Both the position numbers and the translations under genes were made by a program. The notes under the pieces were generated by a model. That model worked only from the letters and a program-made list of their open reading frames with translations. It was not told where the DNA came from and ran no database searches. From contig QWQG01000138.1 of the NCBI GenBank assembly GCA_003670925.1, forward strand, positions 1 to 64,000: DNA of 64,000 nucleotides, in the 5' to 3' direction. The stretch comes from Planctomycetota bacterium (GTDB lineage: Bacteria > Planctomycetota > Planctomycetia > Planctomycetales > Planctomycetaceae). Shown here piece after piece: positions 1,855-4,327 of the stretch; the first letter of the stretch is position 1; every line of letters starts with the position of its first letter.

Positions 1855-2079
1855 CCAGCCAGATGTTGAGCGGGGCAATATTTTGCAACCAGAGTGACGC
1901 CGCACGCCCGACTGTCATTTTTCAGAAAAACGTTCATCCCGTTCAGATCGGCAATGGACGCGGATGGAAGACGGCCTACAACACGGGAATGACAGTGCCG
2001 CGCGGATGCTTTTTCAGATTTGTTGGTGTCAATCCGCGCCGCTCACCGCATGATTCAGCAGGTCGGAGAGCTAGATTCG

Positions 2080-2946
2080 ATGAGCCATTTTTTTTCGCCA
2101 AAAGCCGTTGCAGCTGCGATGGGTGTCAGCGAATCTTCACTGAAGCGATGGGTCGATAAAGGCTTGATTCAGGCGGAAAAAACGGGCGGTGGACATCGAA
2201 GATTGCAACTAGACTCTGTGTTGCAGTTTGCGCGGGAGGCTGGCAAACCGATTACGCGACCGGAACTGATTGGGCTGCCTGAGGGACTCGGATCCACTGC
2301 GTTATTCGGAGACGGTGCCAGTACTGAATTTGAAAAGGCATTAGCCTCCGGAGATGAAATTACCGCGCGACGCGTTGTCCTTGACTTGTATCTCAACAAC
2401 ACTTCTGTCGCGACGATCTGCGACACGATCATCACGCCTGGGTTTCAGAAAATTGGTAGCATGTGGCATTGTGGGAGCATGGAGATCTACGAAGAACGTC
2501 GCGCCTGTGAAACATGCAGTCGCGTCATCCATGAACTGCGTCGTGCGGTTGGTACCGGAATGATCGGTGGGCCGGAGGCGATGGGGGGGACTTTGGATGG
2601 TGACCCCTATACGCTCGCGTCGTGTATGACAGAATTGGTGCTGCGAGATTGTGGTTGGCGGGCGAACTCATTGGGCAACATGCTGCCTTTCGAGACACTG
2701 CGGAGAGCACTGGAGCGTGATCGGCCGCGGCTGATGTGGCTGAGTGTCACGTCGATTCGCGATGCCGATCGATTCATTGCCAGTTTTAATACGCTCTGTG
2801 AGACGGCGACGTCACATGGGTCCGCGATCGTCGTCGGCGGGCAGGCGTTGACGGCTGACATTCGGCGCCTTCTCCGCTACACCACGTACTGCGATAATTT
2901 TCAACATTTGGAAGCCTTTGGCAAGTCCCTGAATCCCCGGAACTGA
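2080..2946 (+). CDS. MerR-type regulator with degenerate cobalamin-binding domain (CarA/CarH-like)
   Basis: 288 residues from the ATG at 2080, chosen because GGAG lies 11 bases before it; an in-frame TTG at 2020 would add 20 unremarkable residues. Residues 1-70 are a MerR-type winged helix (SPKAVAAAMGVSESSLKRW, then GGGHRR). The rest matches the four-helix bundle plus Rossmann cobalamin domain of CarH/LitR photoreceptors, ending with the SxT and VVGGQAL elements of the B12 fold. Two positions that hold the cobalt in CarH are changed. The W-x9-E-H motif reads W129...E139-R140, and DxHxxG reads D175-P-Y177-T-L-A180. The protein therefore looks unable to bind adenosylcobalamin in the CarH way. 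Ferrochelatase starts 10 bases after its stop, so the two are probably one transcription unit. Function inferred: light-independent or differently gated repressor. Confidence 0.8.
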   Translation: MSHFFSPKAVAAAMGVSESSLKRWVDKGLIQAEKTGGGHRRLQLDSVLQFAREAGKPITRPELIGLPEGLGSTALFGDGASTEFEKALASGDEITARRVVLDLYLNNTSVATICDTIITPGFQKIGSMWHCGSMEIYEERRACETCSRVIHELRRAVGTGMIGGPEAMGGTLDGDPYTLASCMTELVLRDCGWRANSLGNMLPFETLRRALERDRPRLMWLSVTSIRDADRFIASFNTLCETATSHGSAIVVGGQALTADIRRLLRYTTYCDNFQHLEAFGKSLNPRN

Positions 2947-2956
2947 ATGTCTCAAT

Positions 2957-4027
2957 ATGGCCAACTCAGGATTATCGCAATACGATGCGATCTTGTTTCT
3001 GTCGTTCGGCGGTCCCGAAAAACGTGACGACGTGATTCCTTTTTTGGAAAACGTGCTGCGTGGTAAACCGGTGCCGCGCGAACGACTGCTTGAAGTCGCG
3101 GAGCATTATTATCATTTTGGAGGCATCAGTCCGATCAATGAACAGTGTCGCCAACTGATCATAGTCCTCCGGCAGGAATTGGATGCGCACGATATTCGCT
3201 TGCCGATCTACTGGGGTAATCGAAACTGGACTCCTTATCTCAACGACACCCTCATTCAAATGAAACGCGACGGAGTCCGACGCGTATTAACTTACGTCAC
3301 ATCTGGTTTCAGTTGCTACTCAGGCTGTCGTCAGTATCGCGAAAATATTGCTGCGGCGTTGGAGCAGCCTGAGGCGGCTGGAATGCAGATCGACAAGTTG
3401 CGCGTATTCTATAATCATGCCGATTTTATTGCCGTCCTCGCTGAACAAGTTGGAAGTGCCCTCGAAAAATTTCCGGGAGAAGTCCGCGACGCAGTCCATG
3501 TTGCGTTTACAGCGCACAGTATCCCGTTGAGCATGTCAACGACGTCGGACTACGAAAAGCAACTTCGTGAAGCGTGCCGCCTTGTGGCTGAGAGACTTGA
3601 GATCCCGGAGTCCCGCTGGAAACTGGTCTATCAGAGTCGCAGCGGTCGCCCTCAAGATCCTTGGCTGGAACCCGACATTCTGGATCATCTGCGGGAGGCA
3701 AAGGCGAGCGGCATCAATCAGGTATTGATTTCTCCCATCGGATTCTTGTCTGATCACATGGAAGTCCTCTACGACCTTGACGATGAAGCCCGACGATTTT
3801 GCGACGAACATGCGATTCAAATGGTTCGCGCCAGCACCCCAGGCAATCATCCGCAGTTCGTCAGGATGATCCGAAAACTTATCCAAGAACGCATGCACGG
3901 AGCCAAGCGAGAATGTCTCGGCGAATTCCCTGCCAATCACGACGTGTGCCCGCTTGATTGCTGCCCAGCACCGATCTCGGGACGACCGGCTGCAGGGCGA
4001 CCTCCAGCGGCGATTCCCTCCACATAA
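2957..4027 (+). CDS. hemH: Ferrochelatase
   Basis: 356 residues, the usual length for the family. It inserts ferrous iron into the porphyrin ring in the last steps of heme synthesis (protoporphyrin IX, or coproporphyrin III if this is the CpfC type; sequence alone does not settle which). Diagnostic segments are LFLSFGGPE near the N-terminus, YWGNRNWTPYL at about residues 80-90, the FTAHSIP stretch with the catalytic histidine near residue 190, and SPIGFLSDHMEVLYDLD with the conserved glutamate near 270. The last 40 residues carry a cysteine cluster (VCPLDCC) after a linker. Some ferrochelatases hold a [2Fe-2S] cluster near the C-terminus, but I cannot confirm the spacing here. The gene follows the MerR/cobalamin-fold regulator by 10 bases, so control of heme synthesis by that regulator is plausible. 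Confidence 0.93.
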   Translation: MANSGLSQYDAILFLSFGGPEKRDDVIPFLENVLRGKPVPRERLLEVAEHYYHFGGISPINEQCRQLIIVLRQELDAHDIRLPIYWGNRNWTPYLNDTLIQMKRDGVRRVLTYVTSGFSCYSGCRQYRENIAAALEQPEAAGMQIDKLRVFYNHADFIAVLAEQVGSALEKFPGEVRDAVHVAFTAHSIPLSMSTTSDYEKQLREACRLVAERLEIPESRWKLVYQSRSGRPQDPWLEPDILDHLREAKASGINQVLISPIGFLSDHMEVLYDLDDEARRFCDEHAIQMVRASTPGNHPQFVRMIRKLIQERMHGAKRECLGEFPANHDVCPLDCCPAPISGRPAAGRPPAAIPST

Positions 4028-4243: not shown

Positions 4244-4327
4244 GCGATCGTGGCGAAATTGGCAGACGCGCATGCTTCAGGAGCATGTGGGGTAACACCC
4301 GTGCTGGTTCAACTCCAGTCGGTCGCA
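4244..4327 (+). tRNA. tRNA-Leu (anticodon CAG)
   Basis: Class II tRNA of 84 bases with a long variable arm. The acceptor strands GCGATCG and CGGTCGC pair fully with one G-T. The anticodon stem CATGC/GCATG encloses the loop TTCAGGA, giving anticodon CAG, which reads CUG. The T-loop is TTCAACT. The discriminator base is A at 4327 and no CCA is encoded. The gene sits alone between hemH and the convergent ABC permease gene. Confidence 0.95.

Follow-up and report, generated by a model that had tools for sequence, protein, structure and literature searches.

A planctomycete CarH/LitR-like regulator with both cobalt-ligand histidines replaced, encoded next to ferrochelatase

B12 photoreceptors are defined by histidine–cobalt chemistry. 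A gene encoding the fold of such a receptor with both ligand histidines exchanged, lying directly upstream of hemH in a planctomycete contig, raises the question of what the protein senses and which genes it controls. A preliminary description of this DNA had suggested that the regulator may sense something else, perhaps heme or a porphyrin, in view of the neighbouring ferrochelatase gene. We examined the locus within the window (the whole 64,000-nucleotide stretch analysed) and its homologues in other genomes. The residue swaps proved to be shared by 91 proteins in which the pocket is otherwise intact and which still lie beside the same kind of genes. Nature may here have moved away from, or around, His-on B12 chemistry step by step. 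The analysis also predicts a stress regulon and its operator in planctomycetes.

The regulator and its rebuilt pocket

The regulator gene and its parts are as follows.

2080–2946, plus strand: CarH-like regulator, 288 aa (domain matches, alignment, structure model)
2092–2238, plus strand: DNA-binding domain, MerR/BldC-type winged helix, residues 5–53 (PF00376 and PF12728)
2311–2550, plus strand: four-helix B12-binding_2 module, residues 78–157 (PF02607; helices in the model)
2572–2943, plus strand: Rossmann B12-binding module, residues 165–288 (weak PF02310 match; strand/helix alternation in the model)
2464–2466, plus strand: W129 codon, the CarH adenosyl-cap tryptophan, kept (invariant in 91/91)
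2497–2499, plus strand: R140 codon, in place of CarH H142 (alignment)
2608–2610, plus strand: Y177 codon, in place of the cobalt-ligand H177 of DxHxxG (alignment)

The architecture of a MerR helix–turn–helix (HTH), helix bundle and Rossmann fold is present. Pfam matches cover MerR/HTH_17 and B12-binding_2 (E 2e-8), with a weak B12-binding match (E 6e-5, under the Pfam cut-off). An AlphaFold model (mean pLDDT 93, pTM 0.90) has as its top PDB fold matches the B12 domain of CtMerR (8JBS/8JBT, TM 0.81–0.85 on target) and then Thermus CarH, which bears out the earlier statement that the MerR and B12 folds are kept. The HTH matches the BldC subfamily model (E 3.5e-6), and BldC structures 6amk and 6ama appear in the profile search.

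Alignment with Thermus CarH (TtCarH) sets W129, H130, E139, R140 and Y177 opposite W131, H132, E141, H142 and H177, with no substitute histidine at either ligand position; the reported replacement of both histidines is thus confirmed. Within the W-x9-EH motif, W129 and E139 are present and the histidine is R140. Within the B12 motif D/ExHx2G...SxT/V...GG, residues D175, S222, T224, G253 and G254 and the x41 spacing are kept and the histidine is Y177. The CarH NCBIfam equivalog model scores 43.5 against a cut-off of 400. On its sequence, canonical His-on cobalt coordination is impossible in this protein. H130, beside the tryptophan, corresponds to the TtCarH light-state ligand H132, but this position varies freely among the family, which makes a conserved role as replacement ligand unlikely.

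The closest characterized relative is CtMerR of Chloracidobacterium thermophilum (PDB 8JBS/8JBT; PMC11796333), the best match in both sequence (E 1e-30) and fold (TM 0.85 on target). The two proteins share an HTH of the SESS-KRW / GGHRR type and the GxxW and GxxxP signature, whereas CtMerR has E-H and the cobalt ligand His204 with AdoCbl bound, and the present regulator has E-R and Tyr177. With CarH (class I LitR) of Thermus and Myxococcus it shares the two-part B12 module, the Trp and Glu of W-x9-EH and the S-x-T/GG residues, and Thermus carH also lies beside a photolyase gene, as do some homologues of the regulator. It differs from CarH in lacking both ligand histidines, in having a BldC-type rather than an R-x-WERRY recognition helix, and in its 9-bp CGTTCA repeats.

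Records labelled Planctomycetaceae, Planctomyces or Fuerstiella supply the nearest homologues, and in a sample search 160 of the 249 genomes from the class contained a family member. Among aligned homologues, 91 have the E-R/D-x-Y state, 21 E-H/D-x-Y, 4 E-H/D-x-H (Thermus CarH, CtMerR, a Rhizobium plasmid protein and one planctomycete) and 10 other states. As R140 and Y177 are common to 91 homologues, the pattern is far above chance and no peculiarity of this single gene; it is a genuine and old feature with a wide distribution among planctomycetes. Nine positions (R140, Y177, G126, W129, E139, G199, P203, G253 and G254) are 100% invariant in the 91 E-R/D-x-Y proteins, against a module mean of 59%. 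CarH pocket positions account for 10 of the 17 most conserved module columns (hypergeometric P 4e-11; P 4e-9 without the two swapped positions). The E-R/D-x-Y family also retains the GG pair and the x41 spacing between the classical motif and S-x-T. Judged from the aligned residues, the published light-response signature (GxxW, EH, GxxH, GxxxP; PMC11796333) is retained apart from the two histidines.

On a quick maximum-likelihood tree built with the two trait columns left out, the states are strongly clustered (3 changes for E-R/Y versus a shuffled mean of 24.6). The tree suggests that Tyr took the place of H177 earlier than Arg took that of H142, and that family f11 has seen some reversals or separate changes. 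Long outgroup branches make the deep rooting uncertain, as well as the positions of TtCarH and the Rhizobium protein. The EH/Y proteins would thus be ready-made intermediates.

A candidate operator and a predicted stress regulon

Two features precede the regulator gene.

1931–1945, plus strand: candidate operator CGTTCA-TCC-CGTTCA, a 9-bp direct repeat (exact motif match), 134 bases before the regulator ATG
1955–1982, plus strand: putative promoter TGGACG-N16-TACAAC, 9 bases downstream of the operator (weak match)

In 95 regions upstream of regulator genes, CGTTCA-N3-CGTTCA was found exactly in 27, with at most one mismatch in 47 and with at most two in 63, versus 0, 0.3 and 3.75 (exact, one and two mismatches) in the shuffled-sequence control. 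Upstream of the homologues the repeats show a strong preference for a gap of 3 (period 9), and the extended operator reads about AAAWTCGTTCAAAWCGTTCA. BldC of Streptomyces, which has a related winged helix and lacks a sensor domain, recognizes 9-bp head-to-tail direct repeats that are AT-rich with a C, each protomer binding one repeat (PMC5859096). Domain match and repeat motif together predict BldC-like DNA binding here, and the site is a very strong candidate for the operator of the regulator family. The same site precedes many EH/Y homologues, so DNA recognition was apparently conserved while the pocket changed. L035 and L042, the two orthologues nearest to this regulator, have boxes similar to the putative promoter; a consensus promoter scan missed the boxes at 1955–1982. 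As a separate observation, the f11 genomes (L169, L190 and L191) carry two paralogues ~13–15 kb apart, one of which has Ala or Ser at the Tyr177 position and is without a good operator copy upstream.

The 5.78 Mb genome holds four exact copies of the operator. Besides the regulator's own site, copies are found ahead of a small-ORF/NmrA-DUF2867 unit, ~40 bases upstream of a fasciclin gene and within a coding region, the last presumably by chance. Copies with at most one mismatch show a modest excess (74 versus 54 for the control). Exact sites total 20 across 18 genomes, versus 5 for the reversed control pattern, and in other genus members they lie by NmrA (G004, G005), fasciclin (G004) and PQQ-propeller genes (G007, G008, G011). 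The NmrA/DUF2867 and fasciclin genes preceded by exact copies here adjoin the regulator itself in other genera. At least one of furan-fatty-acid-type, photolyase, fasciclin, NmrA or DCC1 genes neighbours the regulator at 45 of 80 loci. The furan-fatty-acid-type genes (FAD oxidoreductase, DUF1365, CMAS) are present at 25, usually divergently, followed by fasciclin at 12, photolyase at 9, NmrA at 8 and DCC1 at 6.

By family and order alone, the furan-fatty-acid-type genes are putative Ufa enzymes. In Rhodobacter, where a DUF1365 protein and partner proteins, a desaturase and a methylase, are the furan-fatty-acid enzymes, UfaM, UfaD and UfaO (DUF1365) make furan fatty acid, which accumulates more when chrR is lost (PMC7380195), and light-induced LitR-controlled genes of Pseudomonas include photolyase and UfaM, with an FAD oxidoreductase in the same cluster (PMC9758184). 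These parallels, together with the neighbouring and operator-bearing genes, lead us to call the protein a photo-oxidative stress regulator, and they suggest that it controls light and oxidative-damage genes. The gene context thus points in the direction of light or photo-oxidative stress. The UfaD/UfaO/UfaM-like operon of this genome itself (L155, contig 86 of G000) has no operator within two mismatches and carries a single CGTTCA half-site upstream; the full operator is present in some relatives.

A search of plasmids with the regulator protein recovered one distant homologue, from Rhizobium, with E-H and His. Its gene is unannotated and divergent to a fasciclin gene (L226, 4935–5777 and 3765–4763), and the fasciclin link may therefore extend beyond planctomycetes.

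Linkage to ferrochelatase

The gene downstream of the regulator is the following.

2957–4027, plus strand: hemH, ferrochelatase (PF00762, E 3e-82, residues 10–312; NCBIfam equivalog above cut-off)

A HemH family match over the full length identifies its product as a ferrochelatase. Its start lies 10 bases past the regulator stop, as described previously. This gap is characteristic of the regulator's own clade (three genomes) and makes co-transcription likely there; regulator and hemH are probably co-transcribed in this genome, and ferrochelatase is probably among the regulator's targets. In many other genomes 160–210 bases separate the two genes, and no good operator was found before hemH at such gaps. 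An operator dedicated to hemH was rejected on this ground, nine separated genes yielding one weak two-mismatch case (L047).

Directly downstream hemH genes were found in 13 genus genomes; the genus genomes without one are G004, G015 and G012, the last having a regulator homologue only 40% identical. Among near relatives, L045, L049 and L052 have hemH downstream and L050 does not. In L104 the gene is upstream of the regulator, divergent and on the other strand (1593–2612); this genome is on a separate branch and its association is perhaps independent. Overall, hemH is downstream of about 15 homologues and divergent at one more, versus 91 with the Arg/Tyr pair. From this distribution, the linkage is best seen as a capture by one lineage, gained once or a few times. 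The linkage noted earlier is thus conserved, but within one subclade (the 13 genus members) to which it is also confined, and it does not explain the loss of the histidines. Light-induced carotenogenesis in Myxococcus has an action spectrum that protoporphyrin IX matches (PMC8156234), so draining of porphyrin under light would be a sensible role for the captured hemH.

Two further features of this region may be recorded. The C-terminus of the ferrochelatase (3911–3985) has a Cys-rich tail, C-x-G...NHDVCPxDCCPAP, common to the ferrochelatases of this group and possibly an iron–sulfur site as in some other bacterial ferrochelatases. The sole tRNA gene in the window, tRNA-Leu (anticodon CAG), lies just downstream at 4244–4327.

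What the pocket may hold

The reading we favour, although it stands at about even likelihood, is of an autoregulated CarH/LitR-like regulator of photo-oxidative stress, with a B12-type pocket of non-histidine chemistry and an operon that includes hemH. Its BldC-type domain would bind CGTTCA-N3-CGTTCA before its own gene, just upstream of the weak possible promoter, where it could either repress or activate. It would act from the same repeats at stress genes, here NmrA/DUF2867 and fasciclin and in relatives furan-fatty-acid-type, photolyase and PQQ-propeller genes. The sensor would respond to light or singlet oxygen with a B12 pocket in which Tyr177 and Arg140 have taken the place of the two histidines. 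In this genus hemH would have been taken into the operon as its second gene, and ferrochelatase would rise with the same switch, draining photosensitizing porphyrin under light.

The least certain step is the ligand, most likely an (adenosyl)corrinoid held without a histidine–cobalt bond. We read a ligand as still bound because the adenosyl cap and nucleotide-tail motif are kept, and the invariance of AdoCbl-contacting residues speaks no less for a ligand of the corrinoid type than for heme. The genome encodes a PduO-type cobalamin adenosyltransferase; AdoCbl may thus be available, and the idea that the organism is unable to make it was discarded. Such a corrinoid would rank first, cofactor-free control by a partner second, and heme or porphyrin third. 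Counting against the favoured reading, the known CarH photochemistry would not work without the two histidines, the Ufa-like operon here has no operator within two mismatches, and separated hemH genes lack a good one. The exact genomic copy within a coding region and the modest excess of one-mismatch copies also weigh against it. More generally, and more tentatively, the family may be a planctomycete-wide group of sensors whose CarH pocket has been rebuilt around the invariant Tyr/Arg pair, either as a corrinoid photoreceptor with tyrosine or no axial protein ligand or as a heme/porphyrin sensor that arose from a B12 photoreceptor; in either form it would govern defence against photo-oxidative damage, with ferrochelatase added in one subclade.

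Somewhat unlikely, though the best of the alternatives, is a B12-independent regulator with a cofactor-free pocket, switched by a partner protein and keeping its pocket residues for folding or oligomerization. Class II LitR and CarA indicate that CarH relatives can abandon B12, each by losing other parts (PMC9758184, PMC9304148), and both cobalt-related histidines are gone here. Class II LitR of Pseudomonas (PplR/PmlR), held to be B12-independent and adjoining photolyase, FAD oxidoreductase and UfaM genes, runs a similar gene set through a short LOV protein, and the present regulator is likewise LitR-like. However, class II LitR has only the helix-bundle half recognizable and uses TGTACA-N12-TGTACA sites, whereas in our protein the Rossmann half is present and conserved. 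CarA of Myxococcus xanthus, a CarH paralogue working without B12 (PMC9304148), has the His motif but is missing the Trp and the residues that flank it; the regulator family shows the reverse, with W129, E139, P203 and GG invariant. A BLUF or LOV partner was also sought in the genome and set aside, neither a BLUF domain nor a canonical LOV motif at zero mismatches being found, although a divergent LOV protein is possible.

The regulator is best seen as a novel variant within the CarH/LitR group, falling outside CarH (class I LitR), class II LitR and CarA by the strict definitions tested; a single literature query on planctomycetes, CarH and cobalamin together gave no paper.

Sensing of heme or a porphyrin, possible but unsupported, is a doubtful explanation. 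Tyr177 would ligate heme iron, as tyrosine does in other proteins, or the pocket would hold a porphyrin, and porphyrin load would feed back on hemH and the photo-defence genes. The SCHIC domains of the PpaA/AppA type are B12-fold domains defined by heme binding. In favour of such a sensor are the adjacency of hemH here and in about 15 relatives, the Myxococcus action spectrum (PMC8156234) and the frequent conservation of C143 (86/91) and C271 (79/91). It is opposed by the much wider spread of the Arg/Tyr pair than of the hemH linkage, by the persistence of the B12 nucleotide-tail motif (S-x-T, GG) and adenosyl cap (W129, E139), and by the separated hemH genes without a good operator.

Least probable is a redox or singlet-oxygen sensor acting without a tetrapyrrole through Cys143 (and Cys271) or Tyr177, for while the neighbouring genes fit singlet-oxygen defence and each cysteine is present in only 2 of 21 EH/Y proteins, against the frequencies given above for E-R/Y proteins, EH/Y relatives without these cysteines have the same operator and some of the same neighbours. 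An obligate C143–C271 disulfide was rejected, and this sensor reading is itself weakened, as the two cysteines are not strictly coupled and several natural members have one or neither.
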